Notes under the pieces: generated by a model | What the model saw: the letters and a program-made list of their open reading frames with translations, nothing else | What the model was told of the DNA's origin: nothing | The model's database searches: none | Translations under genes and position numbers: made by a program | In this document: positions 13,525 to 64,000 of the stretch, piece by piece | Numbering within the stretch: position 1 is the first letter of the stretch | How the letters are laid out: every line of letters begins with the position of its first letter | Source: Leucobacter soli | GTDB taxonomy: Bacteria; Actinomycetota; Actinomycetes; Actinomycetales; Microbacteriaceae | Assembly: GCF_910593785.1 (NCBI RefSeq) | Contig: NZ_CAJVAP010000007.1 | Coordinates: 1 to 64,000 of the forward strand | DNA: 64,000 bases | Direction of reading: 5' to 3'

Positions 13525-13537
13525 GGGGAGCGAACGG

Positions 13538-28664: not shown

Positions 28665-28730
28665 CTCTGAGTCTTCCGTTCCGGCTTCGGTGCGACCGTC
28701 GAAGCGATGATCGAGGATCGCGGAGTTGTA

Positions 28731-28748: not shown

Positions 28749-28798
28749 GCGCTGATGAACCGGGTGGAGAGTCCTGACCCGGCTCGTGCCGGGCGCAC

Positions 28799-28830
28799 GC
28801 CTGAGGCTTGCGCGCCGGCGGGCCTCAGGC
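28799..28830 (-). terminator. Hairpin overlapping the end of the TetR gene
   Basis: GCCTGAGGC (28799-28807) pairs with GCCTCAGGC (28822-28830), covering the TetR stop codon. It may separate TetR transcription from the M24 promoter. Confidence 0.5.
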
Positions 28831-29598: not shown

Positions 29599-29707
29599 GC
29601 GAACTCCTTCATTGGTGTGCAAGCGTTCCCCAACCTCCTGGGTCTCCATCCGATCTACCTTACGGTTTCGCGAGGAAGGCGGGGCGAGGATGCCGGCTTG
29701 CACGAAG

Positions 29708-29728
29708 ATAATAATGCGTTATTATGAT
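29708..29728. promoter_or_regulatory. Operator copy 2 and -10 of the ABC importer operon
   Basis: ATAATAA (29708-29714), spacer TGCG, TTATTAT (29719-29725), the same symmetric site as at 28731-28748. The -10 hexamer TATGAT (29723-29728) overlaps its right arm, so a bound repressor would block the promoter. Confidence 0.75.
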
Positions 29729-29761
29729 ACTCCGATCGTTTTGACGAAGGAGTCCACGAAA

Positions 29762-30829: not shown

Positions 30830-30841
30830 CCTCACCGTTCA

Positions 30842-30880
30842 CGGGTCGGTCGGCGGGCCGAGTGCGCGCCGACCGACCCG
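30842..30880 (+). terminator. Strong hairpin between binding-protein and permease genes
   Basis: Perfect 14-bp arms CGGGTCGGTCGGCG (30842-30855) and CGCCGACCGACCCG (30867-30880) with an 11-nt loop and no T-run. Hairpins at this place in ABC operons stabilise the binding-protein message or attenuate read-through, which keeps the binding protein in excess. Confidence 0.65.
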
Positions 30881-30920
30881 AGCCTCCCGCATCCGCTCCT
30901 CCCCGCCCCTTGGATAGCCC

Positions 30921-32587: not shown

Positions 32588-33762
32588 CCCCGACGACCAC
32601 CTCCGGTGCAGACCTGAGACTCAGCGGCCTCGTCAAGCGCTACGGCGGTACGGCTGCAGTAGAGAACGTCGACCTGGAAGTTGCCTCCGGCGAGTTCCTC
32701 ACCCTGCTCGGCCCGAGCGGGTCGGGCAAGACGACGACCCTCTCGATGATCGCCGGCTTCACCGAGCCGAGCGGCGGGAGCGTGGTGATCGACGGGCAGG
32801 AGATCACCGCCGTGCCCCCGCACAAGCGCGGCCTCGGCATGGTCTTCCAGAACTACTCCCTGTTCCCGCATCTGTCGGTGCGCGAGAACGTGGAGTTCCC
32901 GCTGCGCCAGCGCGGGGTCGCCAAGGCCGAGCGGGCCCGGCGCGCGATGGAGGCGCTCGAGCTGGTCGAGCTGCAGGGGCGGGCGAACGCGAAGCCGAGT
33001 CAGCTCAGCGGTGGCCAGCAGCAGCGCGTCGCACTGGCGCGCGCCCTGGTGTTCGAGCCGCGACTGCTGCTCATGGACGAGCCCTTCGGCGCCCTCGACC
33101 GCGCGCTGCGCGAACGGTTGCAGGTCGAGCTGCGCCGGCTGCACCACGAACTCGGCATCACGGTGGTCTTCGTGACTCACGATCAGGAGGAGGCGCTGAC
33201 CCTCTCGGATCGGATCGCGGTGTTCAACGAGGGGCGGATCGAGCAGGTCGGCACGCCCGAGGAGCTGTACGAGCGGCCCGCGACGCTGTTCGTGGCGCGC
33301 TTCATCGGCGAATCGAACGCGCTGCACGGGACGGTCGCCGACGGATCCTTCGTGAGTCACAGCGGGGTGCGCCTGCCGGCCGGGATCGCCGACGGGCCCG
33401 CGGTCGCGATCGTCCGCCCCGAGCGCGTGCGTGCGAGGGCCGCCGGAGACCCCGCGGGCGAAGCGTCGGCAGCCGGCTCTGCGGGCTTCGCGGGCACCGA
33501 GTCCGTCACCGCCGATCTCGACGGCCGGATCGACGACGTCACCTACCTCGGCGCGCAGCGCCGCGTCGAGGTCGCGACCGATGACGGCCCCGTCATCCTC
33601 CGCTCGGGCACCGATATCGCGATGCCCGGCATCGGCCAGCCGGTCCGGCTCAGCTGGGCCGCGGTCGACACCGCCATCTTCCCCACCCGCGACGAAGCAA
33701 CAGGAACGAGCAACCCATGGACCGCAACCCTCGCCCCGCCCACATCAAGCTCTCGGAGCTGA
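32584..33762 (+). CDS. ABC transporter ATP-binding protein, PotA-like
   Basis: A 392-residue ATPase. Walker A is GPSGSGKTT at about residues 43-51, the Q-loop is in VFQNYSLFPHLSVREN, the signature is LSGGQQQRVALARAL, Walker B is LLLMDEPFGALD, and the H-loop is in VTHDQEEALTLSD. The C-terminal TOBE domain (from about 290) is typical of PotA/MalK-type importers. The last ~15 codons overlap the start of the cupin gene by 46 bp and look non-conserved (NPWTATLAPPTSSSRS), so the functional end may be near residue 377. Confidence 0.92.
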   Translation: MTPTTTSGADLRLSGLVKRYGGTAAVENVDLEVASGEFLTLLGPSGSGKTTTLSMIAGFTEPSGGSVVIDGQEITAVPPHKRGLGMVFQNYSLFPHLSVRENVEFPLRQRGVAKAERARRAMEALELVELQGRANAKPSQLSGGQQQRVALARALVFEPRLLLMDEPFGALDRALRERLQVELRRLHHELGITVVFVTHDQEEALTLSDRIAVFNEGRIEQVGTPEELYERPATLFVARFIGESNALHGTVADGSFVSHSGVRLPAGIADGPAVAIVRPERVRARAAGDPAGEASAAGSAGFAGTESVTADLDGRIDDVTYLGAQRRVEVATDDGPVILRSGTDIAMPGIGQPVRLSWAAVDTAIFPTRDEATGTSNPWTATLAPPTSSSRS

Positions 33763-34130
33763 CCCCGATCGACGCGGACGCCGCGCCGACGAAGGTGCGC
33801 ATCAAGCGCATCATCACCCGCGCCGAGCATCAGAGCGAGCTCACGCAGGGCGTCTGCTGGATGGACCCGGGCGAGCAGACCAACGTCTGGTCGAGCCACG
33901 AGGTCTTCGACCCGAAGACGGCCCAGCACTGGTACGGGCCTGTCGACGAGACCTACTACATCATCCGCGGTCGCCTGCGGCTGACCTGGCGCGGTGACGA
34001 CGACGAGGGCGTCTTCGACCTCGGGCCCGACGACACGGTCTACCTCGCCCCGGGATGGACCTACCACCTCGAGAACACCGGGGACGAGCCCGCGTTCTTC
34101 GTCTACAACATGACCCCGGCGCAGGAATAG
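33717..34130 (+). CDS. Cupin-domain protein
   Basis: A 137-residue single-domain cupin. The beta-barrel motifs are WSSHEVFDPKTAQHWYGPVD followed by ETYYIIRGRLRLTW, and later DTVYLAPGWTYHLENTGDEP. The metal-binding His/Glu set is incomplete compared with the classical motif, so an enzyme role is uncertain; a ligand-binding or small isomerase role is possible. Its start lies inside the end of the ATPase gene, which implies co-expression with the importer. Confidence 0.8.
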   Translation: MDRNPRPAHIKLSELTPIDADAAPTKVRIKRIITRAEHQSELTQGVCWMDPGEQTNVWSSHEVFDPKTAQHWYGPVDETYYIIRGRLRLTWRGDDDEGVFDLGPDDTVYLAPGWTYHLENTGDEPAFFVYNMTPAQE

Positions 34131-34165
34131 GCGCCGCGTTCCCACGCCACTGAGAGGAGCCGGAG

Positions 34166-35299
34166 ATGACCCGGACCGAATCGATGCCCGTCCACTTCGA
34201 CGCACGGGTGCTCGAGCACGACACCGGCAGCGCGCTGCACGAGGCCGCACCGAGCCCCTGGTTCGCGGCGAACGAGCCGCACACCGAGGGGCGGCTGCGC
34301 ATCGAGCGCATGCACGACATCCTCGAGCGCGGGCCGGTCGCCGACGCGGTGCGCTTCGCTCCGGGGCGTCTCGCGGCCGAGGAGGAGCTCGCGCGCGTGC
34401 ACGAGGAAGACTACATCGCCGAGGTGCGCCGCTCCATCGAGCGCGGCGGCGGCTGGGCGACCGGCACCACGCGGTTGGCCGAAGGATCCTGGGAGCCTCT
34501 GCTCGCGGCGGCCGGCACGGCGCTCGCCGCGGCCGAGACGGTGCTCTCCGGCAGCGCGCCGATGGCCTACGCGCTCACGCGCCCGCCCGGTCATCACGCG
34601 CAGCGCGCCCAGGCGGACGGCTACTGCTTCTTCAACGGGGCGGCGCTCGCGGCCGATGCGGCGCGGCGGGCCGGCATCGAGCGGGTCCTCGTCCTCGACT
34701 GGGACGTGCATCACGGCAACGGCACGCAGGACATCTTCTACGAGCGCGACGACGTGCTCACCGCGAGCCTGCACATGGATCACGGCGCGTGGGGCGCCAG
34801 CCACCCCCAGACCGGTCGGCTCGAGGAGCGCGGGGAGGGACGCGGGGCGGGCTTCAACCAGAACGTCCCGCTGCCGCTCGGGGCCGGCAACACCGCGTAC
34901 CTCCGCGCCTTCGACGAGGTCATCGCCCCGCTTGCCGAGCGCTTCCAGCCCGGCATGATCGTCTGCGCGAGCGGGCAGGATGCGAGCGCCTACGACCCGA
35001 ACGGGCGCCACAACGTCTCCATGCCGGGATTCCGCGGGATGGGCCGCCGGGTGCGGGAACTCGCCGAGCGCCACACGGACGGCCGCGCGATCCTCGTGCA
35101 GGAGGGCGGCTACAACCCCTCCTATGCGCCGTACTGCCTGCTCGCGACCGTCGAAGGGCTGCTCGGGCGCGATGAGGAGACGGCCGACCCGCTCGCGTAC
35201 GTCCCCGACCAGACGCTCGGCCTCGAGGAGCGCTTCGCCGAGCTCGCGGCGGAGCTGAGCGACGAGCGCCTCGCCCGGATCTCGGCGCAGCGTTCCTGA
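34166..35299 (+). CDS. Histone-deacetylase-family amidohydrolase (acetylpolyamine deacetylase-like)
   Basis: A 377-residue zinc amidohydrolase. The catalytic His pair H143-H144 is in RPPGHHAQ. Zinc ligands are D180 and H182 in DWDVHHGNGTQ and D272 in SGQDASAYDP. The Gly-Gly-Tyr loop QEGGYN near the C-terminus provides the transition-state Tyr. Bacterial members of this class remove acetyl groups from acetylputrescine and acetylspermidine. Its place between a PotABCD-like importer and amine-oxidising enzymes fits this. GAGAGGAGCCGGAG precedes the ATG. Confidence 0.9.
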   Translation: MTRTESMPVHFDARVLEHDTGSALHEAAPSPWFAANEPHTEGRLRIERMHDILERGPVADAVRFAPGRLAAEEELARVHEEDYIAEVRRSIERGGGWATGTTRLAEGSWEPLLAAAGTALAAAETVLSGSAPMAYALTRPPGHHAQRAQADGYCFFNGAALAADAARRAGIERVLVLDWDVHHGNGTQDIFYERDDVLTASLHMDHGAWGASHPQTGRLEERGEGRGAGFNQNVPLPLGAGNTAYLRAFDEVIAPLAERFQPGMIVCASGQDASAYDPNGRHNVSMPGFRGMGRRVRELAERHTDGRAILVQEGGYNPSYAPYCLLATVEGLLGRDEETADPLAYVPDQTLGLEERFAELAAELSDERLARISAQRS

Positions 35300-35383
35300 A
35301 GTCGCATGGCGACGTTGCCGGGCTCGTGCATTTCTAGCGATCTGCTGTGCAGTTGCTCGAAAGCGGAACGGAATCAGTCGGAA

Positions 35384-35402
35384 ACGCGCCGATTCGGCGC
35401 GT
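35384..35402. promoter_or_regulatory. Perfect 19-bp palindrome upstream of the FAD oxidoreductase gene
   Basis: ACGCGCCGA-T-TCGGCGCGT. It is 45 bp upstream of the start at 35447. A -10-like TATCGT at about 35409-35414 would place the palindrome over the -35 region. The 147-bp gap thus probably holds a separate, regulated promoter inside the cluster. Confidence 0.6.
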
Positions 35403-35446
35403 AATCGGTATCGTTAGAAGCACTGCGTTTAATGGAGGAAACCACG

Positions 35447-36820
35447 ATGCTCAACGGCAATGTCTCGCACTGGTGGCAGCAGATCGGCGGCGCACCGGAT
35501 CCGAGGCCGTCGCTGCCCGGAGATCTCACCGCCGACGTCGCGATCGTCGGAGCCGGGTACACCGGACTCTGGACCGCCTACTACCTGAAGCAGGCCAAGC
35601 CCGAGCTCCGAGTCGTCATCGTCGAGCAGCACCACGCGGGCTACGGAGCCTCGGGCCGCAACGGCGGCTGGCTGACGAACGCCATCACCGGCGGGCGCGA
35701 GCAGTACGTGAAGACGCACGGCCGCGAGGCCGCCGAACGCTTCCAGGCCGAGATGAACGGCACGGTCGACGAGGTGATCCGCGTGGCGCAGGCGGAGGGG
35801 ATCGACGCCGACATCAAGAAGGGCGGCGAGTTCAACGTCGCCTACACGCCGGCGCAGGAGAAGCGCATCCGCGAGTTCGCCGCGTCCGAGCAGCAGTGGA
35901 AGCACACCGACCTGCAGCTGCTCGAGGCCGCGGAGGCCGCGGCGAAGATCAACGTGGCGAACACCCGTGCTGCCGTCTGGCATCCGCACTGCGCCAGGAT
36001 CCAGCCCGCCAAGCTCGCCGCGGGGCTCGCCGAGGCCTGCGTGCGCTCCGGCGTCGAGATCTACGAAGGCACCCGCGTGGTCGAGATCGCTCCGCACCGC
36101 CTCCGCACGACGCACGGCACGGTCTCCGCCGACTACGTGGTGCGCGCCACCGAGGGCTTCACCGCGAACCTGAAGGGTCTGCACCGGCTCTGGCTGCCCA
36201 TGAACTCGTCGCTGATCGCGACGGAGCCCCTCCCCGCCGCGGTGTGGGACCAACTGCACTGGAACGAGGGCGAGACGCTCGGCGACTTCGCGCACGTGTA
36301 CATGTACGCGCAGCGCACCGCCGACGACCGCATCGCGATCGGCGGTCGCGGAGTGCCCTACCGCTACGGCTCGAAGACCGATACCGACGGGCAGACGCCG
36401 CCCGTCACGGTCGAGACTCTGAGCGAGATCCTGCACCGCTTCTTCCCCGCGACGAAGGGGGCGGCGGTCGACCACGTGTGGTCGGGCGTGCTCGGCGTGC
36501 CCCGCGACTGGGCCGCGACCGTCGGCCTCGACCGCGCGACCGGGATCGCCTGGGGCGGCGGCTACGTCGGCACCGGCGTCACTTCGACGAACCTCGCCGG
36601 CCGCACCATCTCCGATCTGATCCTCGGCCGCGACAGCGAGCTGGTCACCCTGCCCTGGGTGAACCACCGCGTGCGCAAGTGGGAACCGGAGCCGCTGCGC
36701 TGGATCGCGACGAAGGGCCTGTACGCGGCCTACGGGATCGCCGACCGCAGCGAGCTCGCTGGCCGCCGCACGACCTCGCCGATCGCCCACATCGCCGACG
36801 TCGTCACCGGTCGGCACTAG
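35447..36820 (+). CDS. FAD-dependent oxidoreductase, gamma-glutamylputrescine-oxidase-like
   Basis: A 457-residue DAO-family flavoenzyme. The dinucleotide motif GAGYTGLWTAYYLKQ follows ADVAIV (about residues 36-52), with VEQHHAGYGASGRNGG next, typical of PuuB and related amine/amino-acid oxidases, and GGGYVGTGVTSTNLAGR near the C-terminus. It probably oxidises an amine such as gamma-glutamylputrescine or a related compound. The ATG at 35447 follows GGAGGAA; the in-frame ATG at 35432 carries that ribosome binding site and is rejected. Confidence 0.88.
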   Translation: MLNGNVSHWWQQIGGAPDPRPSLPGDLTADVAIVGAGYTGLWTAYYLKQAKPELRVVIVEQHHAGYGASGRNGGWLTNAITGGREQYVKTHGREAAERFQAEMNGTVDEVIRVAQAEGIDADIKKGGEFNVAYTPAQEKRIREFAASEQQWKHTDLQLLEAAEAAAKINVANTRAAVWHPHCARIQPAKLAAGLAEACVRSGVEIYEGTRVVEIAPHRLRTTHGTVSADYVVRATEGFTANLKGLHRLWLPMNSSLIATEPLPAAVWDQLHWNEGETLGDFAHVYMYAQRTADDRIAIGGRGVPYRYGSKTDTDGQTPPVTVETLSEILHRFFPATKGAAVDHVWSGVLGVPRDWAATVGLDRATGIAWGGGYVGTGVTSTNLAGRTISDLILGRDSELVTLPWVNHRVRKWEPEPLRWIATKGLYAAYGIADRSELAGRRTTSPIAHIADVVTGRH

Positions 36821-53136: not shown

Positions 53137-53348
53137 CAGGGCCGGGATCCGCAGTCGACGATGCTCCCCGCTTCGCAGATGTGGATGAATCCACCAGTCC
53201 GAGCCTGATCTTTTTGTCTGGATTGAACAAGCTTCGACCGGTATGGTGCCGTCCGCCGTTGTGGAGACCGCGCCCGATCCTTGGCGCTCCCAGGCCGCGC
53301 CTCTAGCGTGGCAGCAGCACCGTGCGCACGCCCGTCGAAGGAGCAGAT

Positions 53349-55385
53349 ATGAGCACCACCCCCCGCATCGATGTCAACGCGGTCCGCGACTCCCTCTACG
53401 GGAAATGGAAGACCGAGCGCCTCGAAGCGCGTCGCGTCGCCTCGGATCCGCGGTTCCAGACGATCCCCGGGCAGTCGATGGAGGATCATCGCGCCCGCGT
53501 GCTCGAACAGCTCGGCGGGCTCGTCGAAGCCGGCGCGATCCAGCGGGCCTACCCCTCCGACCTCGGCGGCAGCGACAATCATGGCGGCAACATCGCCGCC
53601 TTCCAGGAACTGGTCTTCGCCGACCCCTCGCTGCAGATCAAGAGCGGCGTGCAATGGGGGCTCTTCGGCGCCGCGATCCTGCACCTCGGTACGCGGACGC
53701 ACCACGAGAAGTGGCTGCCCGACGTGATCAGCCTGAAGCTGCCGGGCGCGTTCGCGATGACCGAGATCGGGCACGGCTCCGATGTCGCCTCGGTCGCGAC
53801 GACCGCCACGTACGATCCCGGTGCCGAGGAGTTCGAGATCCACACCCCGTTCCGCGGAGCGTGGAAGGAGTTCCTCGGCAACGCGGCCCTGCACGGGCAG
53901 GCGGCTGTCGTCTTCGCGCAGCTCATCACCGGTGGTGTGAACCACGGTGTGCACGCCTTCTTCGTCCCGATCCGCACGCCCGAGGGCGAGCTGCTGCCCG
54001 GGGTCGGCGCCGAGGACGACGGGGTGAAGGGCGGTCTCAACGGCATCGACAACGGGCGGCTGCACTTCACGAACGTGCGGATCCCGCGCGAGAACCTGCT
54101 CAACCGCTACGGCGACGTCGCGCCCGACGGTACGTACTCCTCGCACATCGAGAGCCCCGGCCGCCGCTTCTTCACCATGATCGGCACGCTCGTGCAGGGG
54201 CGCGTCTCGCTCGACGGATCCGCCGCGAACGCGATGAAGGGCGCGCTGGCCATCGCCCTGCGCTACGGGGCCGAGCGGCGTCAGTTCCCCGGCCCGGACG
54301 GTCGCGACACGGTGCTCCTCGATTACGGGTTGCACCAGCGCCGCCTGCTGCCGCGACTCGCCGAGACCTACGCCGTCGCCTTCGCCGGGCACCGGCTGCT
54401 CGAGACCTTCGACGAGGTGTTCTCGGGCGCCAACGACACCGATGAGAACCGAGAAGACCTCGAGACCCTCGCCGCCGCGCTCAAGCCGCTCTCGACCTGG
54501 GCCGCGCTCGACGTGCTGCAGGAGGCGCGCGAGGCGACCGGCGGCGCCGGCTTCATCGCGAAGAACCGCCTCACCGGGTGGCGGGCCGACCTCGACATCT
54601 ACGTCACCTTCGAGGGTGACAACAACGTGCTGCTGCAGCTCGTCGGCAAGCGTCTGCTCACCGACTACGCGGCGCAGTTCAAGGACGGCGACGTCGCGGC
54701 GATAGCGAAGGCCGTCGCCGGGCAGATCGGCGAGGGAGCGGTGCGCTTCGGCCTCCGCCAGATCGGTCAGAGCATCGCGGACCTCGGGCAGGTGGCCCGA
54801 TCCGTCGAGGGCGTGCGGGACGAGTCGGCGCAGCGCGAGCTGCTCGCCGACCGCGTTCAGACGATGGTCGCGGCGATCGCGATGGCGCTGCGCGAATCGA
54901 CGAAGGACCTGCCGAAGGAGAGGCGCGCGGCGGCCTCCGCGGCGGCGTTCAACGCGCAGCAGGCCAAGCTCATCGACGCGGCGCGGGCCCACGGCGAACT
55001 GCTGCAGTGGGAGGCGTTCACCGAGGCGCTCGCCGACTTCTCGGGCGACACGCTGACCGTCATGACCTGGCTGCGAGACCTCTTCGGCCTGAGCCTCATC
55101 GAGAAGCACGCGGCCTGGTACCTCGTGAACGGTCGGCTCTCGGGCTCGCGCGTCGAGGCGGTCACCGCGTACATCGACCGACTCCTGGGCCGCATCCGCG
55201 AGCAGGCTCTCGACCTGGTCGACGCCTTCGATCTGACGCCCGAGCTGCTGCGCGCCGAGATCGCGACCGGCATCGAGGCGGAGCGCCAGGCCGAGGCGCA
55301 CGCGCACGTCGAGGCCCGCATCGCCGACGGCACCTGGCCGATCCACGAGAAGGAGCTGCGCAAGCGGGCGCAGGCCGTGTCATAA
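53349..55385 (+). CDS. Acyl-CoA oxidase/dehydrogenase-type flavoenzyme
   Basis: A 678-residue protein of the acyl-CoA oxidase group: PGAFAMTEIGHGSDVASVAT (FAD/substrate block), FGAAILHLGTRTHHEKWLPD, RRQFPGPDGRDTVLLDYGLH, and the catalytic Glu region DIYVTFEGDNNVLLQLVGKR. The C-terminal ~200 residues form the ACOX helical domain. It would oxidise fatty acyl-CoA with O2 to the 2-enoyl product. GAAGGAG precedes the ATG at 53349. A -10-like TAGCGT is at about 53303. It converges with the SnoaL-flavin reductase gene. Confidence 0.92.
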   Translation: MSTTPRIDVNAVRDSLYGKWKTERLEARRVASDPRFQTIPGQSMEDHRARVLEQLGGLVEAGAIQRAYPSDLGGSDNHGGNIAAFQELVFADPSLQIKSGVQWGLFGAAILHLGTRTHHEKWLPDVISLKLPGAFAMTEIGHGSDVASVATTATYDPGAEEFEIHTPFRGAWKEFLGNAALHGQAAVVFAQLITGGVNHGVHAFFVPIRTPEGELLPGVGAEDDGVKGGLNGIDNGRLHFTNVRIPRENLLNRYGDVAPDGTYSSHIESPGRRFFTMIGTLVQGRVSLDGSAANAMKGALAIALRYGAERRQFPGPDGRDTVLLDYGLHQRRLLPRLAETYAVAFAGHRLLETFDEVFSGANDTDENREDLETLAAALKPLSTWAALDVLQEAREATGGAGFIAKNRLTGWRADLDIYVTFEGDNNVLLQLVGKRLLTDYAAQFKDGDVAAIAKAVAGQIGEGAVRFGLRQIGQSIADLGQVARSVEGVRDESAQRELLADRVQTMVAAIAMALRESTKDLPKERRAAASAAAFNAQQAKLIDAARAHGELLQWEAFTEALADFSGDTLTVMTWLRDLFGLSLIEKHAAWYLVNGRLSGSRVEAVTAYIDRLLGRIREQALDLVDAFDLTPELLRAEIATGIEAERQAEAHAHVEARIADGTWPIHEKELRKRAQAVS

Positions 55386-55409
55386 GCGGATCCGGCCCGA
55401 TCGGCGCGG

Positions 55410-56360
55410 CTATGTCAGCTCCTCGAGTCCCGCACCGCCGTAGAACCGTCCCGCCTTGTACACCAACGGAGCCGCATCCGTGACGTCCGCATGCTCCACC
55501 CGCGCGACGAACACCGTGTGCGTCCTCGCCTGGTACCGCTCCTTGATCCGCGCCTCGATCGAGGCCGAGGAGCCGTCGATGAGCGGGCTGCCGAACGGAC
55601 CGCTGCTCCACGCGAGGCCGAGGAACTTGTCGCCGTCCTTGGCTGCGAACCTCCGCACCGTGCCGAGCTGGGCATCGCTCATGATGTTGATGCCCAGATG
55701 AGAGGATGCGAAGAGCGCGCCGTACGTCGATGAGGTCTTCTGCACGCAGACGATGACCAGCGGGGGATCGAGCGAGACGGAGGCGTACGAGTTGACCGCG
55801 AGCCCCCGGGGGGCGCCGTGCTTGTCGACCGTCGTGACGACGGTCACCCCCGTCACGAACTGGCGGTTGAAGCCCTTGATCGACTCGATGTCGATCGCGC
55901 CGGAGAGGTCGTCGGCCACGGTACCTGCGGGGTCGTCCTCGAAGGCGGCGCGCAGGGACGGCACCCCGACGTCCGCGAGGAGCGCGGCCCGGTCCCAGGT
56001 GACCTTCTCGCGAACGATCAGCCCGTCGCGCAAGACCAGCTGGTTCGAGCCCCGGGTGGACACCCGGCACCCCGTCGCTGGCACGCCCCCAAAGTTCCTC
56101 CTGAAGGTGCCGACCGAATTCCAGAACAGCGCTCCCCGCCCGCCGTCGATCACCAGGTCGTCGAGGGTGTTCGACAGATCCGGGAACGCGTCGCGGATAT
56201 CGCGGATGTCCTGCTTCAGCTCGGCGAGCGACATGGTCCGTCCGGATGCCGCGCTCTCCCGTCGATACTCCTCGTGGTAGATCCGATCGAGCGCGTCGAC
56301 CTCGCCCTCGTCCCAGGCCAGTGTCCACGCTCGTGCGATGTGCTCTTTGAACTGATGCAT
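55410..56360 (-). CDS. SnoaL-like domain fused to flavin reductase
   Basis: A 316-residue fusion. Residues 1-140 form a SnoaL/NTF2-like fold (HIARAWTLAWDEGEVDALD, then IYHEEYRRESAASGRT and LFWNSVGTFRRNFGGVPATG). Residues about 155-316 form a flavin-reductase-like FMN-binding domain (FNRQFVTGVTVVTTVDKHGA, PRGLAVNSYASVSLDPPLVI, and FASSHLGINIMSD). The reductase half probably supplies reduced flavin to the divergently encoded LLM monooxygenase. The SnoaL half may bind or transform the substrate. The start, MHQFKEHIAR, is 327 bp from the LLM gene start. Confidence 0.85.
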   Translation of the reverse strand: MHQFKEHIARAWTLAWDEGEVDALDRIYHEEYRRESAASGRTMSLAELKQDIRDIRDAFPDLSNTLDDLVIDGGRGALFWNSVGTFRRNFGGVPATGCRVSTRGSNQLVLRDGLIVREKVTWDRAALLADVGVPSLRAAFEDDPAGTVADDLSGAIDIESIKGFNRQFVTGVTVVTTVDKHGAPRGLAVNSYASVSLDPPLVIVCVQKTSSTYGALFASSHLGINIMSDAQLGTVRRFAAKDGDKFLGLAWSSGPFGSPLIDGSSASIEARIKERYQARTHTVFVARVEHADVTDAAPLVYKAGRFYGGAGLEELT

Positions 56361-56687
56361 GCGGGCCAGGATATGAACGCCGCCGAAAACCCGTCAAGAG
56401 CGGCGCACGGTCTGCCGGAAACCTTTGTGCACTGTACAGAGACGCCGCGCGACTTCTCGATTTCGGGACAACGGCGGTCCTCAGAGGACCCGGCGGCCCT
56501 TTACGGCACCGGACCAGTACGCCTCTCGCACCAGCGAACATCGTCCGGATGTCCAACTGTCGATTTTGTCGGGTCGAACGTGCGTCGAATGGCTAGTGAT
56601 TCGGGGCGGTCAGATTTCTAGGCTCGTCCGGTAGGCGGCCGGAGTCGGCTGCGCAGCCAGGAATTCGGTCTCAGAGGAAGTAGCGTC
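56361..56687. promoter_or_regulatory. 327-bp divergent regulatory region with palindromes
   Basis: No gene is seen. CTGTACAG (56432-56439) and a perfect 15-bp palindrome GGTCCTC-A-GAGGACC (56476-56490) lie between the SnoaL-flavin reductase and LLM genes. A TTGTCGGG/TTCGGGACA pair is also present. These are candidate sites for the PucR-type regulator encoded downstream. AGAGGAAG precedes the ATG at 56688. Confidence 0.5.
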
Positions 56688-57728
56688 ATGCAGTTCGGTT
56701 TGTTTCTTTCCCATCAACGGATCCACGAGCCGAGCGCGTACGCGGAGTCGCTCTTCGTCGAGAAGCGACGCGAGGCAGAACTCGCTGACGAGCTGGGCTT
56801 CGACATGATCTGGATGCCCGAGCACCATCTGATCCACTTCATGCAGGCGCCGAACGCGCTGATGCTCGCGCAATACCTCGGGCAGGGGCTCTCCTTGCGA
56901 GTCGGGACGATGGCGACGCTGCTCCCGCTCCGCCATCCGCTCATCACCGCGGCGGAGGTCGCGCTCACCGCGTCGCTGCTCGGAGACCGCTTCGAGTTCG
57001 GCGTCGGACGCGGCGCCTATGAGTACGAGTTCGTGCGGCTCGGCGTGCCGTTCGCGGATGCGCCTCAGCGGTTCACGGACACGCTCGAGTTCCTCGAGGA
57101 GCTCTGGGCCTCCGAGAGCGGAGCCGCCTCGATGTCGACCGAGGTCTACGACTTCCCGAACGCAGCTCCCTGGCCGCGCATGCCCGGCCGCGACAAGCTC
57201 CGCGTCTGGTACGCGGCGATGACCAGGCCCTCGGTGCTCAAGGCGGCCGAGGCGGGATACAGCGTGGCGACCTGGCCCTTCATCCGGCCGATGTCGGCGC
57301 TCGAGCCGATCGCCGAGGCCTTCCACGAGGGGGTGCGCGCGAACCGGCTCGGCAAGAAGCAGGAGCTCACGGTGCTGCGCGCGACCTTCGTCTCCCACTC
57401 GGAGGAGGAGATCGAGCAGCGCATCGACGAGGCCCTCATCAACCACCGGATCAACCAGCGCCTGCACCACTTCATCCAGAACGCGGACGAGTCGGGCGTC
57501 GTCAGGCCGGACCCGCTGGACGAGGAGCCCTCGCGGGCAGAGGTCAGGGAGAACCTGCTCTTCGGCACCCCCGAGGAGGTCATCGAGAAGCTTCGAGCGT
57601 ACGAGGCTATCGGCGTCGACCAGATCATGACGACCTTCGACTTCGGACCGGAGCATGCAGCGGTGGCACGGTCGATGCGGCTCTTCGCCGACGAGGTCAT
57701 CGCTCCGATGCGGTCGGCAGCGAAGTAG
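56688..57728 (+). CDS. LLM-class flavin-dependent monooxygenase
   Basis: A 346-residue bacterial-luciferase-like enzyme. It has MQFGLFLSHQRIHEPSAYAE at the start, then GFDMIWMPEHHLIHFMQAPN, RVGTMATLLPLRHPLITAAE, and FEFGVGRGAYEYEFVRLGVP. It is likely the oxygenase of a two-component system using FMNH2 from the divergent flavin-reductase fusion. The C-terminal FGTPEEVIEKLRAYEAIGVD is the usual flavin-phosphate region. It heads a run of + strand genes: amidohydrolase, PucR regulator and aldehyde dehydrogenase. Confidence 0.9.
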   Translation: MQFGLFLSHQRIHEPSAYAESLFVEKRREAELADELGFDMIWMPEHHLIHFMQAPNALMLAQYLGQGLSLRVGTMATLLPLRHPLITAAEVALTASLLGDRFEFGVGRGAYEYEFVRLGVPFADAPQRFTDTLEFLEELWASESGAASMSTEVYDFPNAAPWPRMPGRDKLRVWYAAMTRPSVLKAAEAGYSVATWPFIRPMSALEPIAEAFHEGVRANRLGKKQELTVLRATFVSHSEEEIEQRIDEALINHRINQRLHHFIQNADESGVVRPDPLDEEPSRAEVRENLLFGTPEEVIEKLRAYEAIGVDQIMTTFDFGPEHAAVARSMRLFADEVIAPMRSAAK

Positions 57729-57749
57729 GAGACGAGAAAGGACGTGAGC

Positions 57750-59402
57750 ATGTCGCAACGTGTCTTCCTGGGACGGGTCGTCACCCTCGACCGCGACGAC
57801 CGCAGAGGAACCGGCATCCGGACCTCCGGGAGCAGGGTCCGCGATGTGCTCGAGGAGTCGAGTGCGGCCGGGGACGGCGAGATCCTCGACTTCGGGGATC
57901 GGGTGATCCTCCCCGGCTTCGTCGATGCGCACGTCCATCTCGAAGTGACGGCCCGCGCCCTGGTGACGATGGTCGACGTCCGAGTACCGAGGTGCCGCAC
58001 CGTCGCGGATGTGCTGGAGGTGCTGAGCGACGCGAGCGCCGGCTGGTCGGAGCCGGAGAACGTGTGGATGCGGGCCCAGGCGAATCTGTTCTTCGACCAG
58101 AAGCTCGCCGATAAGCGCTACCCCACGCTCGCGGAGCTCGACGGCGCCACGGGGGACATCCCGTTGGTGATCCACGCCGGCGGTCACACCTCCCTGCTGA
58201 ACTCGGCGGCGATCCGTCTATCGGCGCTCGAGCGGTTCTCCACCGGCGAGCAGGGGGCGATGGGCGGAGTCGTGGTCGAACGCGACTCCACGGGCCGTCC
58301 GACCGGCCTCGTCAGCGAGATCGACAGCTTCCTTCCGATCATCGACCGGAGCGAGGGATCCCTCTCGCGGACCCTCGTCGAAGGCGCCCGCGAGCTCTTC
58401 ACCCAGTACGGCGTCACCGTGATCGGCGATATCTCGGGCACCCCGGCGGGAGTGCGCGCCATAGCCGCCGCAGCCGAGTCGGGCGAGATCCCGCAGCGTG
58501 TCGTCGAATACGTCTGCGCTCCGGGGACGCTCGAGTTCGAGGATGCGCTGAGATCTCGCGAGATCTTCGGCGACGGCGAGCGGTTCCACGTCCGAGGCAT
58601 CAAGGTGTTCGCCGACGGCGGCTACTCGTCGCGCAACGCGGCGGTCGACATCCCCTACGTCGACGAATACGCACTGGAGGCCGGCTCGACCGGCACCGTC
58701 AACATCGGCCGCGAGGAGCTGGTGGAAATGGTGAGCCGCAGCGCTCGAGCCGGGCTGCAACTAGCCGTCCACGCGAACGGCGAACGAGCGCAGCGGGAGA
58801 TCGTCGAGGCCGCCGCGGCGGCCGAGAGCGCCGCCGGCCTTCCCGTGCGGATGGAGCACGCGGGGAACCTGATGATGGACGGTACCGCGGACGCGGCATG
58901 GCGCGAGGCCGATGTCGTGCCGATCCCGCAGCCGACCTTCCTGTACAACTTCGGCGACTTCTTTCCGCTCTACCTGGGGGAGGCCGCATCCACCGGACGC
59001 TTCCGCTTCCGGGATCTCTCCGAGCGCGGCTGGCGCCTGGCGGGCAGCTCGGACGTCTTCACGGGTGCGGAGGAGGCTCAATCGAATCCGCTCTTCGGCG
59101 TCTGGAACTGCCTGGCGCGGCGCTCGTTCAACGATGCGGTGATCGAGCCCGACCAGGCGCTGACGCTCGACCAGGCGCTGCGCATGTACACGCAGTACGC
59201 CGCGGACTCGCTTGGCCTGGGTGATAGCTACGGCAGTATCGAGGCAGGGAAGGAGGCCGACTTCGTAGTGCTCGACAGGGATCCCTACGAAGCATCTGCG
59301 GACGAGCTCCTGGAGATACGGGTCGATCACGTGGTGGTCGGCGGGCGTATCGTCCACTCCCGCGACGGAGCGCCGCCGCCGAACGTCTCCGAACGCGGAT
59401 AG
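57750..59402 (+). CDS. YtcJ-family amidohydrolase (Amidohydro_3)
   Basis: A 550-residue metal-dependent hydrolase: VILPGFVDAHVHLEVTARAL (HxH metal site), VIHAGGHTSLLNSAAIRLSA, GIKVFADGGYSSRNAAVDIP (carbamylated-Lys/His region), VHANGERAQREIVEAAAAAE, MEHAGNL, and SSDVFTGAEEAQSNP (catalytic Asp). It belongs to the same family as 37352-38992 but to a distinct subgroup. The ATG at 57750 is 7 nt after AAAGGA; the GTG at 57744 is too close. It follows the LLM gene by 21 bp, so the two are co-transcribed. Confidence 0.88.
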   Translation: MSQRVFLGRVVTLDRDDRRGTGIRTSGSRVRDVLEESSAAGDGEILDFGDRVILPGFVDAHVHLEVTARALVTMVDVRVPRCRTVADVLEVLSDASAGWSEPENVWMRAQANLFFDQKLADKRYPTLAELDGATGDIPLVIHAGGHTSLLNSAAIRLSALERFSTGEQGAMGGVVVERDSTGRPTGLVSEIDSFLPIIDRSEGSLSRTLVEGARELFTQYGVTVIGDISGTPAGVRAIAAAAESGEIPQRVVEYVCAPGTLEFEDALRSREIFGDGERFHVRGIKVFADGGYSSRNAAVDIPYVDEYALEAGSTGTVNIGREELVEMVSRSARAGLQLAVHANGERAQREIVEAAAAAESAAGLPVRMEHAGNLMMDGTADAAWREADVVPIPQPTFLYNFGDFFPLYLGEAASTGRFRFRDLSERGWRLAGSSDVFTGAEEAQSNPLFGVWNCLARRSFNDAVIEPDQALTLDQALRMYTQYAADSLGLGDSYGSIEAGKEADFVVLDRDPYEASADELLEIRVDHVVVGGRIVHSRDGAPPPNVSERG

Positions 59403-59460
59403 AGCATCGGCGGCGAACCCCCACCATGCCATCGGATGAGCAGCTCGATCGTGCAGAAGC

Positions 59461-59473
59461 TAGCATGCTTCGT
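59461..59473 (+). promoter_or_regulatory. Leaderless -10 element inside the longer PucR open frame
   Basis: TAGCAT (59461-59466) followed by 7 nt and an in-frame ATG at 59474. No ribosome binding site precedes the earlier ATG at 59426. Confidence 0.45.
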
Positions 59474-61039
59474 ATGCCCAGGATCGTTGATGAGATCATC
59501 AGGAAACCTGAGTTCGGCATAGAGGTCCTCGCACGGAACAGCGAGCTCGAACCGGCGGTCGTGTGCAGAGGGGTCCAGGTGACCGAACACGTCGACCCGT
59601 CGCCGTGGCTCCACCGGCTCGAGATCGTGCTCACCACTGGGATCTCGCTCACCACCGAGGCGCAGCAGCAGGCCTTCGTCGAGAAGCTGGTCGCCAGCAA
59701 GGCGCTGGCTCTGATCTACAGTGCTTACTCGGGCGAGCTGGTGCCCGAACGGGTCATCGAGGTCTGCCGGCAGCACGGACTCACCCTGCTCCGGCCGTCA
59801 CCGGTCGTGCCGCTCGCCGACATGGCCGCGTTCATCAATCGTCGGATCCTCGACGGGCATTTCGCGACGCAGCAGACCTCGATCAAGCTGTACCGGCAAC
59901 TGGTCGCCCTGGTGATCCGCGGCGCCTCCATCCAGAAGATCCTCGACACAGTGCTCGACATCCTCGACTTCTCCCAGACGATGATCATCGATCGCGAGGG
60001 GATCGTCCTCGCGGAAACGGGGCAGGATCCGGAGATCCTCGCCCTGATGAAGCACACTATCCGCAGCTACCGTCGGAACGCCCGGGGCGCGGGGCAGTCC
60101 TTCCAGCTGCCGTTCGACCAGTCGCTTTGCAATGTCATCCCGGTCCAGCTCGACGGCAGCACCCATGCCTTCATCGCGATCGTCAGTTCGCGCGCCCTGA
60201 ACGAGCACGAGGAACTCATGCTCGAGCAACTCCACGCCGGGGTCGCGCTTACCCTCTCGCGCGACCTCACCGACAACCGGTGGCGGCAGCAGTCCTTCAC
60301 GCGTCTGCTCGAGGCCGTCCATATGGGCGAGATGAGCTCCGTCCTCGTGCAGGAGCGGCTCAGGGCCGCCAACATCGACGAAGCCGTGGAAGGAGTGCTC
60401 TTCCGAGTCGAGTGCGAGACCGATGGCTCGCATCTGGCACAGCTCATCCGGGTACTCGAGAACGAGCTCATCGGCTTCACGGACACGGTAGCCTTCCACG
60501 AGGGGGCCGTGTACTTCTTCGTCCCGGATCCGTCCGAGCGGCTCGGGGAGGAGATCTACCGTTCCCTCTCGCCGCTCCGGAACCCGAAGGTCATCGCGAG
60601 CATGCGCCACAGCGGTGCCGACGGGTTCGTCCGGGCCTACCAAGAGGTGAACATGCTGGCGCAGCAGCAGCTCAACAGTGTCGGGTTCTTCGCAGCCGAG
60701 AGCATGGACACGCTGACCATACTGCGAAGCAATCACGATCCGATGCTGCGCGCTCTCGTCGCGCGCGCACTGGGACCGTTGTTCGACGCGAACGGGAGAG
60801 AGAAGCCCGAACTGCTTCATACTCTGGAGACCTTCATCAGGAGCGGCTGTCGAACGGGGCCGACCGCAGAGGAATTGCACGTCCATCGGCACACGGTGAC
60901 GTACCGGCTCAATCAGATCACCCAGCTCGTCGGTCTCGACCCCCGCTCAGGGGATTCGCTCCTCGAATACACTGCGGCGCTCCGGCTCTATCGGGCGGGC
61001 GTCGTCAAGTGCGAGGACATCACCGACCGGACACGATAG
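59474..61039 (+). CDS. PucR-family transcriptional regulator with sensor domain
   Basis: A 521-residue regulator. An N-terminal PucR domain (about 1-120: IVDEIIRKPEFGIEVLARNS, then VQVTEHVDPSPWLHRLEIVL) is followed by a GGDEF-like linker region and a C-terminal HTH_30 (HVHRHTVTYRLNQITQLVGL, with DSLLEYTAALRLYR). Such proteins activate catabolic genes in response to their substrate. The start at 59474 gives a standard domain onset and a leaderless promoter; 59426 would add 16 residues. It sits between the amidohydrolase and aldehyde dehydrogenase genes and is probably their regulator. Confidence 0.88.
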   Translation: MPRIVDEIIRKPEFGIEVLARNSELEPAVVCRGVQVTEHVDPSPWLHRLEIVLTTGISLTTEAQQQAFVEKLVASKALALIYSAYSGELVPERVIEVCRQHGLTLLRPSPVVPLADMAAFINRRILDGHFATQQTSIKLYRQLVALVIRGASIQKILDTVLDILDFSQTMIIDREGIVLAETGQDPEILALMKHTIRSYRRNARGAGQSFQLPFDQSLCNVIPVQLDGSTHAFIAIVSSRALNEHEELMLEQLHAGVALTLSRDLTDNRWRQQSFTRLLEAVHMGEMSSVLVQERLRAANIDEAVEGVLFRVECETDGSHLAQLIRVLENELIGFTDTVAFHEGAVYFFVPDPSERLGEEIYRSLSPLRNPKVIASMRHSGADGFVRAYQEVNMLAQQQLNSVGFFAAESMDTLTILRSNHDPMLRALVARALGPLFDANGREKPELLHTLETFIRSGCRTGPTAEELHVHRHTVTYRLNQITQLVGLDPRSGDSLLEYTAALRLYRAGVVKCEDITDRTR

Positions 61040-61311
61040 GCCGGCGGACAGCCGTCCGCGTCCGCGAGTACGAGGATTCCCGGGCATGTCTCCTCCTGCC
61101 CGCGGGTCGTCGCGGCGTCGGGTCGTCGAGGCTCCCGACCCGTGGATCCGCGCCCGGCGGCGGTCGCCGAGACGAAGGCCAGTTGGAGTATCCGGCAGGC
61201 CGAGTTCTTTCAATCTGGCTAATGCTTTTGCCCTGGAGCGAAACTACCTTGGCATTCGACGGGCGCCCCCCAGTGCGCGGTTCCTGAGTGACGACGAGGT
61301 TAAGGACGGCA

Positions 61312-62766
61312 ATGACGAGTTCCATCAGCACGTACACCCTGTACATCGGCGGAGAGCGGGTCTCATCAGACTCGACCGAGACGATCGACAGCTTCAACCC
61401 GGCGACCGGCGCGCTCGAGTACCGCATCCCCGACGGGAACGCCGCCGACGCGGACCGCGCTGTTCGCGCCGCACGAGAGGCGCTCGACTCGTGGCGGAGG
61501 CTGACCCCCGCCGAGCGGGGCGCGCACCTGTTCAAGATCGCCGACGAGGCGGAGAAGCACGTCGAGCGCCTGGCCGAGGCCGAGACCCGCGACAACGGCA
61601 AGCTGCTGCGCGACACGCTCGCGACCTATCGCGTGCTCCCAAGCATCTGGCGCTACTTCGCCGGCTGGGCCGACAAGATCCCGGGTTCGGTCATTCCCAC
61701 GGGGGACGACGCGCTGAACTACCTCCGGCGTGAGCCGCATGGTGTGGTGCTGTCGATCGTGCCCTGGAATGCGCCCCTGCAGCTCGCGAGCCACAAGCTC
61801 GCGGCCGCCCTGGTCATGGGCAACACCGTCGTACTGAAGCCTTCGGAGATCACCTCGGGAGTGGTCCTCGATTTCGTCGAGGTGCTCGAGAACGCGGGCC
61901 TCCCCAGGGGCGTCATCAACATCGTGACCGGGCGCGGCAGCACGATCGGAGAGGCGCTCGTCAGCCACCCCGGCGTCGACCTGATCACGTTCACCGGCGG
62001 CACGGGCACCGGCACGAGGATCGCGAAGGTCGCGGCGGACCGGCATGTGCCCTGCCTGCTGGAGCTCGGCGGGAAGTCGCCGAACATCGTGTTCGCCGAT
62101 GCTGATTTCGAGAAGGCGCTGAACGGGGTGGCGAACGCCATCTTCGCCGTCTCCGGCCAGGCGTGCACCGCGGGATCCCGCGCCTATGTGCATCGCGACA
62201 TCTACGATGACTTCGTCGCCGCGCTGGTCGAGCGCGCGAAGCGCATCCGTGTCGGAGATCCGCGGAGCGACGGGACCGAGATGGGTCCGCTGGCCTATTC
62301 CGAGCATTTCGACCGCGTGCTCTCCTACGTCGACAAGACGGTCGGCGAGGGTGCGCGGCTCGCGACCGGTGGGCGACGGGTCGCGGGGGCGGGGTTCGAC
62401 GACGGGCTGTACCTCGAGCCGACGATCTTCGACGGCGTCACGCCCGAGATGACGATCACCAAGGAGGAGATCTTCGGGCCGGTGCTCGCCGTGATCCCCT
62501 TCGACACCGAGGACGAGGTGATCGAGCATGCGAACGGCACCGAGTTCGGACTCGCGGCGGGCGTGTGGACCCAGAACGTGAACCGCGCGCATCGCGTGGC
62601 CCGGCGGATCGATTCCGGAGTGGTGTGGGTGAACACCTACCGGGTCCTCAGCCCGATCACGCCCTTCGGCGGGTTCAAGGCCAGCGGGCACGGCAAGGAG
62701 GGCGGGGTCGAGAGCCTCTACGAGTACTCGCGGCTCAAGAGCGTCTGGATGGATCTCAGCGAGTAG
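61312..62766 (+). CDS. NAD-dependent aldehyde dehydrogenase
   Basis: A 484-residue ALDH: VPWNAPLQL with catalytic N153, FTGGTGTG, general base E251 in LELGGKSPN, nucleophile C285 in GQACTAGSR, and the C-terminal PFGGFKASGHGKEGG block. It would oxidise an aldehyde made by the LLM monooxygenase or by amine oxidation. AAGGA is 7 nt upstream of the ATG at 61312. The 272-bp gap before it (61040-61311) has no gene; an AT-richer patch near 61210-61260 is a possible promoter. Confidence 0.92.
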   Translation: MTSSISTYTLYIGGERVSSDSTETIDSFNPATGALEYRIPDGNAADADRAVRAAREALDSWRRLTPAERGAHLFKIADEAEKHVERLAEAETRDNGKLLRDTLATYRVLPSIWRYFAGWADKIPGSVIPTGDDALNYLRREPHGVVLSIVPWNAPLQLASHKLAAALVMGNTVVLKPSEITSGVVLDFVEVLENAGLPRGVINIVTGRGSTIGEALVSHPGVDLITFTGGTGTGTRIAKVAADRHVPCLLELGGKSPNIVFADADFEKALNGVANAIFAVSGQACTAGSRAYVHRDIYDDFVAALVERAKRIRVGDPRSDGTEMGPLAYSEHFDRVLSYVDKTVGEGARLATGGRRVAGAGFDDGLYLEPTIFDGVTPEMTITKEEIFGPVLAVIPFDTEDEVIEHANGTEFGLAAGVWTQNVNRAHRVARRIDSGVVWVNTYRVLSPITPFGGFKASGHGKEGGVESLYEYSRLKSVWMDLSE

Positions 62767-62817
62767 ACCCCACCGAATCTCGACGAACCACACAACGAAC
62801 GTCCAAAGGAGGACTTC

Positions 62818-63912
62818 ATGAACACTCTCTCTCAGATGAGCACCACGCGACGCGGGCTGCTCGGCGGATCGCTCGGCATCGGCGCGCTCGGTCTTCTCGC
62901 CGGGTGCTCCCCCTCGCCGCAGACAGGAGGCGGCGGTGGGAGCGGGAACCCCTTCACCATGGTCACCTGGGGCGGCACCTCCGAGGAGGCGTTCCTCGAG
63001 GCCTGGGGAACTCCCTTCATAGAGGCAACCGGCCGCACCATCACCACCGACACCATCGACTACGGCCGGTTCGCGACTCAGGCCGAGAGCGGCAAGCTGG
63101 AGTGGGACTGGTTCGACTGCGAGGCGTACTACGCGCTCGGCAATCCGGACTTCTTCCAGCCGCTCGACTACGATCGGCTCGAGGTCGACAAGGACGACTT
63201 CATCGAGATGCCCAACGATCGCGGCCAGGCCTTCACCGAGCGCGCGCTGGTCTCGTACTGGACCTCGTGGGTCAGCAGCTATCGCACCGACCGCGACGGC
63301 CCGCGCCCGATGAACTGGGAACAGTTCTTCGATACGAAGGCGATCCCGGGCAAGCGGTCCGTCTACAACTGGCCGCAGGGCATGCTCGAGATCGCGCTCC
63401 TCGCCGATGGCGTCGCGTACGAGGACCTCTACCCGCTCGACCTCGAGCGTGCGTTTGCGAAGTACGACAGCATCCGGGACGATCTGGTGTTCTGGAACTC
63501 CGCGGCCGAGTCGCAGCAGTACCTCGTGAGCGGCGCCGCGGACTTCGTCGTGACCTGGAACAACCGGATCGGCAACCTCGCGCTCGGCGGCGAGGCGGTC
63601 GCGATCGAGTGGGAGGGCAACCTCCGCTCGTACGGCATGCACGTCGTTCCCGAGAACGCCCGCGACGAAGAGGGCACCTACGAATGGATCAAGCTGGCGC
63701 TGAAGCCAGAGAACCAGGCGGCGTTGAGCCTGGGCGGCGGCATGGCGCCGACCTTGAAGTCGGCCTCCGCCTCGATCCCCGCCGATGTGCGCAAATGGCT
63801 GAGCACCGAGCCCGAGGCGATCGAGAAGTCGGTCGGCGGCGCCGACGAGAAATGGTGGGGCGAGAACCTCGCCGAGGTTTCGACACGGTGGTACGAGTGG
63901 GCGGGTCAGTGA
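62818..63912 (+). CDS. PotD-like extracellular solute-binding lipoprotein, paralogue of 29762
   Basis: A 364-residue binding protein. STTRRGLLGGSLGIGALGLL looks Tat-like and the lipobox LAGC ends at C30. The body has the same PotD-type fold and the block ALLADGVAYEDLYPLDLERA, followed by KYDSIRDDLVFWNSAAESQQ, nearly as in the binding protein at 29762-30829. It is followed by a permease gene overlapping its stop (GTGA), so a second importer of the same class begins here. Substrate unknown. AAAGGAGGAC precedes the ATG. Confidence 0.88.
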   Translation: MNTLSQMSTTRRGLLGGSLGIGALGLLAGCSPSPQTGGGGGSGNPFTMVTWGGTSEEAFLEAWGTPFIEATGRTITTDTIDYGRFATQAESGKLEWDWFDCEAYYALGNPDFFQPLDYDRLEVDKDDFIEMPNDRGQAFTERALVSYWTSWVSSYRTDRDGPRPMNWEQFFDTKAIPGKRSVYNWPQGMLEIALLADGVAYEDLYPLDLERAFAKYDSIRDDLVFWNSAAESQQYLVSGAADFVVTWNNRIGNLALGGEAVAIEWEGNLRSYGMHVVPENARDEEGTYEWIKLALKPENQAALSLGGGMAPTLKSASASIPADVRKWLSTEPEAIEKSVGGADEKWWGENLAEVSTRWYEWAGQ

Positions 63913-64000
63913 CCTCTTCGCTGAAGGGCAAGCGGCTGGGGTTCCTCATCCCCAGCCTGCTCCTGCTCGTCGTGGTGTTCGCGATCCCGGTCGTGCTCGT
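63909..64000 (+). CDS. ABC transporter permease, N-terminal part (truncated by window)
   Basis: GTG start overlapping the binding-protein stop by 4 bp. The 30 codons in the window encode SSLKGKRLGFLIPSLLLLVV and then VFAIPVVLV, the cytoplasmic head and first membrane segment of a PotB-like permease. The rest of the gene lies beyond the window. Confidence 0.8.
   Translation, partial: MTSSLKGKRLGFLIPSLLLLVVVFAIPVVL

Follow-up and report, generated by a model that had tools for sequence, protein, structure and literature searches.

A catabolic gene island in Leucobacter soli that may degrade an imported N-heteroaromatic compound by flavin-dependent ring cleavage

What would a bacterium import and degrade with a luciferase-like oxygenase, a flavin reductase, a hydrolase and an aldehyde dehydrogenase encoded next to one importer? 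This question is raised by the right-hand end of a 64,000-nucleotide stretch of the Leucobacter soli genome (hereafter the window; positions 1-64000 of contig NZ_CAJVAP010000007.1, here C7, of a 2.87-Mb draft), for which we also read the contig sequence beyond 64000. A first-pass annotation had proposed a catabolic unit there that imports a cationic or polar nitrogen compound, hydroxylates it, hydrolyses an amide and oxidises the aldehyde. Our analysis revealed a 13-gene island inserted between two conserved genes, and we give a probability of roughly 0.55 to the reading that this is a self-contained catabolic island for an N-heteroaromatic compound, polar and probably carrying a carboxylate, which is taken up and then broken down through direct oxidative cleavage of its ring. 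Its genes, which extend from 55.4 to about 70.0 kb, are as follows, with coordinates past 64000 (outside the window) being contig positions that continue the window's numbering.

55410-56360, minus strand: fusion of an N-terminal SnoaL-like domain (PF07366, E 2.8e-22) with a flavin reductase (Flavin_Reduct, PF01613, E 1.5e-37)
56688-57728, plus strand: LLM-class (luciferase-like; Bac_luciferase) flavin-dependent monooxygenase (PF00296, E 3.4e-45)
57744-59402, plus strand: Amidohydro_3 metal-dependent hydrolase (PF07969, E 1.1e-66)
59426-61039, plus strand: PucR-family regulator (PucR, PF07905, E 1.5e-15; HTH_30, PF13556, E 1.6e-18)
61288-62766, plus strand: aldehyde dehydrogenase (Aldedh, PF00171, E 6.2e-174)
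62818-63912, plus strand: solute-binding protein, SBP_bac_8, of the gamma-aminobutyrate (GABA)-receptor, polyamine or opine type (PF13416, E 2.1e-27)
63909-64715, plus strand: importer permease 1, its first part (63909-64000) inside the window
about 64712-65584, outside the window: importer permease 2
65588-66670, outside the window: importer ATPase (TIGR01187)
66705-67214, outside the window: 169-residue protein without a Pfam match
67243-67833, outside the window: short-chain dehydrogenase/reductase (SDR)
67912-69060, outside the window: second LLM-class enzyme (LLM2)
69057-69950, outside the window: Amidohydro_2 hydrolase

The six genes that had been named in the first pass are all intact open reading frames with clear Pfam matches, and the remainder of the importer that it had sought beyond 64000 stands just past the window end, such that the importer is complete (binding protein, two permeases, ATPase) and is followed by further enzymes (SDR, LLM2 and Amidohydro_2). 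Intergenic gaps within the island are operon-like (15, 23, 51, 34, 28 and 78 bp), with 4-bp overlaps between the binding protein and permease 1 genes and between the LLM2 and Amidohydro_2 genes; the exceptions to this tight spacing are 248 bp ahead of the aldehyde dehydrogenase gene and the divergent flavin reductase gene. A promoter scan found 1 candidate against 0.8 in shuffled sequences, a terminator scan found none against 2.7 in shuffles, an Rfam search matched only tRNA, and repeats in two intergenic regions were unremarkable. Because its parts have different nearest relatives within the same genome, with the flavin reductase and aldehyde dehydrogenase being 59% and 50% identical to counterparts in a cluster on contig C18 and the importer being 39-49% identical to that of a cluster on contig C8, the island is a mosaic of reused parts.

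Comparison with other genomes of the genus revealed where this set begins and ends. To its left, and not a member of it, lies a gene (53322-55385, plus strand) that we read as a putative acyl-CoA dehydrogenase, with no NCBIfam model matching at E ≤ 1e-100; to its right lie a prolyl aminopeptidase gene (70024-71007, equivalog cut-off passed) and, beyond that, a gene that we read as PhoH-like. The left gene was matched in all 54 genomes of the genus, L. soli included (E ≤ 1e-120), and the PhoH-like gene in 53 of 54 (E ≤ 1e-100). Nine of the 53 other genomes (picked by eye from two match tables, and all fetched) have these flanking genes no more than a few kb from each other on a single contig; in each of the remaining 44, the two are widely separated or on separate contigs, or one of them is unmatched. 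The gap between the ends of the BLASTN hits for the left gene and for the prolyl aminopeptidase is 73-289 bp in six of these nine genomes (G579, G565, G585, G575, G568 and G573) versus 14,671 bp in L. soli; two other genes occupy the site in G580 and G578 (in G580 of HpcH/HpaI type and isochorismatase type by Pfam), and in G569 the prolyl aminopeptidase had no BLASTN match. G+C content is also lower in the inserted stretch (0.64-0.69 in 1-kb bins, apart from a single bin at 0.71) than in its flanks (about 0.70-0.72). The whole set, about 14.7 kb, is one insertion between two conserved genes, with boundaries defined by BLASTN match ends rather than by a target-site duplication. None of the 13 genes is a transposase or integrase, and mobile-element remnants at the ends were rejected, there being no word of at least 10 bases common to 55330-55650 and 69750-70120 in either orientation. 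A chance neighbourhood was rejected as well, by the empty site in relatives together with the recurrence of the enzyme set. Separately, the site between the flanking genes (about 55385 / 70024) may be a hot spot: G580 and G578 have other genes ahead of the prolyl aminopeptidase gene, and G573 and G565 have them behind it.

Evaluating how widely the set is shared, we found it to be rare as a cluster and recurrent as a content. Among 396 genomes of the order (E ≤ 1e-50) and among 394 of the class (E ≤ 1e-45), the LLM query matched L. soli alone; in the genus it matched 10 of 54 genomes at 1e-20, L. soli included, with the best elsewhere being 34% identical (G540). The Amidohydro_3 query matched two genomes, one of them L. 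soli, among 150 of the family and again among 396 of the phylum at 1e-60, and 3 of 54 of the genus at 1e-50, L. soli included. A scan of genome contigs gave one remote locus at 27% identity. We then examined 11 other Amidohydro_3 relatives (three matches in G559 being counted as one), seeking the LLM, flavin reductase and aldehyde dehydrogenase in the fetched stretches by tblastn with the L. soli clusters and G018 as seeds. All three were present in seven: L. soli contig C10, G018, G540, G1049, clusters 1 and 2 of pLDW-10 from Arthrobacter crystallopoietes DSM 20117, and plasmid pYKAM101. Genes in these relatives were called by a simple codon-composition script, such that starts may err and genes of other G+C may be missed. 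Accessory genes vary among them (CMD, EthD, YCII, SnoaL, and an NCS1 or ATP-binding cassette (ABC) transporter); G1049 holds a compact LLM-flavin reductase-CMD-aldehyde dehydrogenase-Amidohydro_3 block, and G540 is nearest in logic to the island, with an LLM, Amidohydro_3, aldehyde dehydrogenase, ABC ATPase, PucR helix-turn-helix regulator and flavin reductase as well as an apparent binding protein and permeases. The complete importer, the insertion of its own and the recurrence of the enzyme set in distant bacteria bear out the catabolic unit that had been proposed; its conservation as a unit holds for content, while gene order differs among relatives (C10 and pLDW-10 cluster 2 agree) and the exact cluster was in no other genome among those searched in the order, class and genus.

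The relatives include further clusters of L. soli itself. The C10 cluster (L013, 6492-14472) matches pLDW-10 cluster 2 in order and content, with identities of 74% for the LLM, 68% for the aldehyde dehydrogenase, 66% for the NCS1 permease, 60% for the flavin reductase and 57% (over 148 residues) for Amidohydro_3. Contig C14 (L023, 9462-15897) carries another kind of Amidohydro_3 cluster, in which a FAD-binding-3 monooxygenase-type gene is accompanied by genes for an ABC permease and its ATPase, and Rhodococcus pyridinivorans plasmid pA (L016) has, by annotation, an arrangement like it. LLM/flavin reductase/aldehyde dehydrogenase/hydrolase sets number five in the L. soli genome, on C7, C10, C8, C18 and C22.

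What chemistry might the enzymes perform? The best solved relatives of the first LLM are alkanal monooxygenase (luciferase) alpha chains, whose GICRGLYDKDF aligns with GVGRGAYEYEF in the LLM such that a G-x-x-R-G-x-Y stretch is kept, at what we take to be a flavin-site position. Because this luciferase-like stretch comes with a dedicated flavin reductase, the pair fits a two-component reduced-flavin oxygenase, with the SnoaL-flavin reductase as the putative supplier of reduced flavin. In the Amidohydro_3 protein, the HxH, Lys, His, His and Asp positions, presumably the metal ligands of amidohydrolase-superfamily hydrolases, are kept in all eight aligned sequences, the window's included (pLDW-10 cluster 2, cut by the locus end, NGR234, G1049 and G559 being left out of the alignment), and we propose it as an N-acyl-enamine (formamide) hydrolase. 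The aldehyde dehydrogenase falls below the cut-off of all 25 NCBIfam models listed of the 46 matched, four succinate-semialdehyde dehydrogenase (SSADH) models among them; an SSADH is encoded elsewhere in the genome, on contig C8 (TIGR01780, 686.6 versus 646.35 bits). PucR-type regulators are also found in pLDW-10 cluster 1 and G540. The Rut pyrimidine pathway was rejected, with no RutA model among the 23 NCBIfam models that the LLM matched at E ≤ 0.001 and the RutF model TIGR03615 at 54 versus 254.75 bits.

The importer holds what hint there is about the substrate. Its ATPase passes the potA-subfamily TIGR01187 cut-off (380.3 versus 355.6 bits), in keeping with the "PotD-like importer" of the first-pass annotation. 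For the binding protein this label may be refined: its top solved relatives comprise two GABA sensors together with 4eq7 (E 6.3e-50), which its depositors label "(Polyamine)" and which we take to be the GABA receptor Atu4243; opine and polyamine proteins follow, and a spermidine/putrescine protein ranks far lower (E 2.5e-18). In the alignment, the binding protein keeps the Arg of WNxR and, 23 residues on, has Gly in place of the Asp of its GABA-sensor relative, positions that we assume to correspond to Arg203 (carboxylate-binding) and Asp226 (ammonium-binding) of Atu4243. This pattern hints at a substrate that would carry a carboxylate and no free ammonium, such as a heteroaromatic carboxylate. 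Other binding proteins encoded in LLM clusters, those of C8, G559 and Parasedimentitalea, have Ser, Gly and Gly at the Asp position, and the Asp is retained in that of Mesorhizobium WSM1271, which also stands beside an LLM.

The same importer permits another account, close to the first-pass annotation, in which a non-aromatic cationic nitrogen compound (a polyamine, amide or betaine) undergoes hydroxylation or N-dealkylation by the LLM, amide hydrolysis by the amidohydrolase and, by the aldehyde dehydrogenase, oxidation of the aldehyde that results. We consider this unlikely. The potA-subfamily ATPase, the kinship of the binding protein with GABA, polyamine and opine receptors, and the "(Polyamine)" label that its nearest natural relative, 4eq7, received from its depositors all speak for it, as does the top NCBIfam score of the aldehyde dehydrogenase, a betaine-aldehyde dehydrogenase model, although under its cut-off (511.2 versus 668.6 bits). 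It fits less well with the Gly in place of the presumed ammonium ligand, and the sets of relatives stand with an NCS1-type permease (C10, pLDW-10 cluster 2) or a BCCT gene (pLDW-10 cluster 1). Moreover, the NtaA/DmoA model TIGR03860 is absent from the first LLM's 23 NCBIfam hits and scores 38.4 versus a cut-off of 279.7 bits with LLM2; a monooxygenase of that type was rejected for both enzymes.

Ring cleavage is suggested instead by parallels with known pathways. In the pyr, tpd and tgn pathways the N-heteroaromatic ring is opened by an oxygenase of this kind, which yields an N-acyl-enamine product, and an aldehyde dehydrogenase and a hydrolase finish the conversion; since these closest parallels known to us cleave the ring directly, the hydroxylation of the first-pass annotation is doubtful. 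Its statement that it knew no described pathway with just this set is not supported either: the pyridine (pyr) pathway of Arthrobacter sp. 68b, which Casaite et al. are said to have described in 2020, reportedly comprises an LLM, a flavin reductase, an aldehyde dehydrogenase and an amidohydrolase, as does the island, and reportedly ends in succinate semialdehyde and succinate, with the SSADH PyrD clustered. Compared with this description, the island differs in having an ABC importer, PucR, the SnoaL fusion and a second LLM/Amidohydro_2 pair, and in having a single aldehyde dehydrogenase and no clustered SSADH, that enzyme being encoded on C8. Could the island then be of the pyr type and serve to degrade pyridine or a methylpyridine itself? 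The equal enzyme set, the SSADH in the genome and the 50% identity of the LLM to its counterpart on the Arthrobacter plasmid pLDW-10 favor this, but a dedicated ABC importer suits a charged substrate better than pyridine, the SSADH stands outside the island, the likeness to pyr is by described content and not by sequence, and the C10 cluster and pLDW-10 cluster 2 are equally good candidates by content, which together make this identity quite improbable. Cluster 1 of pLDW-10 shares PucR, an LLM (50%), a flavin reductase, an aldehyde dehydrogenase and Amidohydro_3 (42%) with the island and differs in its CMD and EthD genes and in an adjoining BCCT transporter instead of the ABC importer; its flavin reductase and aldehyde dehydrogenase are of another subtype (62% and 69% identical to those of C10).

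Trigonelline (tgn) degradation in Acinetobacter baylyi proceeds through two-component LLM ring cleavage, then an aldehyde dehydrogenase, with a TgnD-like alpha/beta hydrolase; the island differs by having Amidohydro_3 and Amidohydro_2 in the place of that hydrolase. The C8 and C18 clusters do have an alpha/beta hydrolase (by Pfam in C8, by similarity in C18) and resemble tgn more than the island does. The tpd pathway of Rhodococcus jostii TMP1 is alike, by description, in that a flavin monooxygenase acts on an N-heteroarene and is followed by a hydrolase; we know of no aldehyde dehydrogenase step in it. In PMC6099782, tpdA is the putative flavin monooxygenase gene heading an operon for initial tetramethylpyrazine degradation, and the regulator is the LuxR-family TpdR, versus PucR in the island. 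Two further papers describe amidase, aldehyde dehydrogenase and SSADH genes in Rhodococcus genomes, read as a pyridine route in which the C2-C3 bond is cleaved (PMC10005059), and a proposed ring opening of 4-hydroxypyridine followed by hydrolysis of an N-formyl product, with enzyme families that differ from the island's (PMC7356986). We regard the island as a variant of known LLM-initiated degradation, and we do not assign it as the pyr, tgn, tpd or Rut pathway.

From gene content and these parallels we infer a scheme in which ring cleavage, the order of steps, the class of substrate and the regulation are all conditional. The importer would bring in a polar, probably carboxylate-bearing N-heteroaromatic compound; the SnoaL-flavin reductase would give reduced flavin to the LLM, which would open the ring to an N-acyl-enamine aldehyde; the aldehyde dehydrogenase would oxidise that aldehyde, and Amidohydro_3 would hydrolyse the N-acyl (formamide-type) bond to yield a semialdehyde or acid, to be finished by central enzymes encoded elsewhere, such as the SSADH on C8. 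PucR would sense the substrate or a product, and LLM2 and Amidohydro_2 would probably handle a later or related intermediate.

The second pair is open to two other accounts. One is that LLM/Amidohydro_3 and LLM2/SDR/Amidohydro_2 are unrelated modules for two substrates that share one importer, an account compatible with ring cleavage by the first module. Relatives of LLM2 and Amidohydro_2 (45% and 50% identical) stand 1.7 kb apart in G122, where a 20-kb stretch has no match to the first LLM, flavin reductase or Amidohydro_3; set against the operon-like spacing and the single common insertion boundary of the island, this leaves two modules somewhat unlikely. The other is a pathway so far undescribed, in which two successive flavin-dependent cleavages, each with its own hydrolase, would dismantle an imported carboxylated N-heteroaromatic that is bicyclic or substituted. 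The first opening would fall to a distinct Amidohydro_3-paired LLM clade (window, pLDW-10 cluster 1, G540, G1049 and G018), and the LLM2 pair would act on a second ring or later intermediate, an idea that we hold as tentative and improbable.

The LLM tree bears on the preferred reading, direct ring cleavage of one imported N-heteroaromatic compound, from both sides. The window LLM pairs with that of pLDW-10 cluster 1 (support 99/98), and one branch (support 98/98) separates 8 LLMs beside Amidohydro_3 from 11 beside an alpha/beta hydrolase, as would be expected if oxygenase and hydrolase act on linked steps. Of the 23 rows, 4 carry no label, and long branches are present (3.01 for the C10 type, 1.98 for G018). 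Rows were partly found through the labelling hydrolase, which weighs against the reading along with the points that follow. LLM enzymes also perform Baeyer-Villiger, desulfonation and N-dealkylation oxygenations. Because four of the 11 Amidohydro_3 relatives (C14, R. pyridinivorans pA, NGR234 and G559) had no LLM or flavin reductase match, the Amidohydro_3 family serves other pathways as well; in pA an LLM is annotated, yet gave no tblastn match. The likeness to the ring-cleaving PyrA, TpdA and TgnA is by description and not by sequence, and unsubstituted pyridine should need no importer. On the side of the substrate, the depositors' label of 4eq7 points to polyamines, the C8 and G559 binding proteins carry an Asp two positions ahead of the presumed Asp226 site, and the binding-protein hint depends on assumed residue roles.

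Riboflavin genes accompany two clusters of this kind. The C18 cluster (L011, C18:38001-57000, about 3072-15636; LLM, aldehyde dehydrogenase, alpha/beta hydrolase, two AA_synth, GntR, SnoaL-flavin reductase and BCCT genes) directly adjoins ribD-ribE-ribBA-ribH, and the C18-type LLM, with the rest of the cluster where the stretch reaches, stands beside similar-looking rib genes in G582, G014, G581, G576 and G540. On the mobilizable plasmid pYKAM101 (L015), a RibBA gene (9487-10602) lies inside an LLM/flavin reductase/EthD/aldehyde dehydrogenase ... Amidohydro_3 cluster. With riboflavin synthesis genes twice associated with such clusters, may there be a link to flavin-dependent ring cleavage? Elsewhere in the window, 27408-36820 holds an importer of the same type with M24 peptidase-like, histone-deacetylase-fold (PF00850) and DAO-type oxidoreductase genes, perhaps an importer cluster for acetylated polyamines; G559 (L055) has much the same order with extra importer genes interspersed.

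To our knowledge, there are only a handful of pathways in which luciferase-like enzymes open N-heteroaromatic rings oxidatively. The split of the LLM tree by hydrolase type, together with five sets in one genome, suggests a large, mostly uncharacterised repertoire, whose genes are named merely "LLM class flavin-dependent oxidoreductase" in the annotations examined. The L. soli island would offer a compact, complete, single-insertion test case for this repertoire, with a binding protein that could be used to find the substrate.

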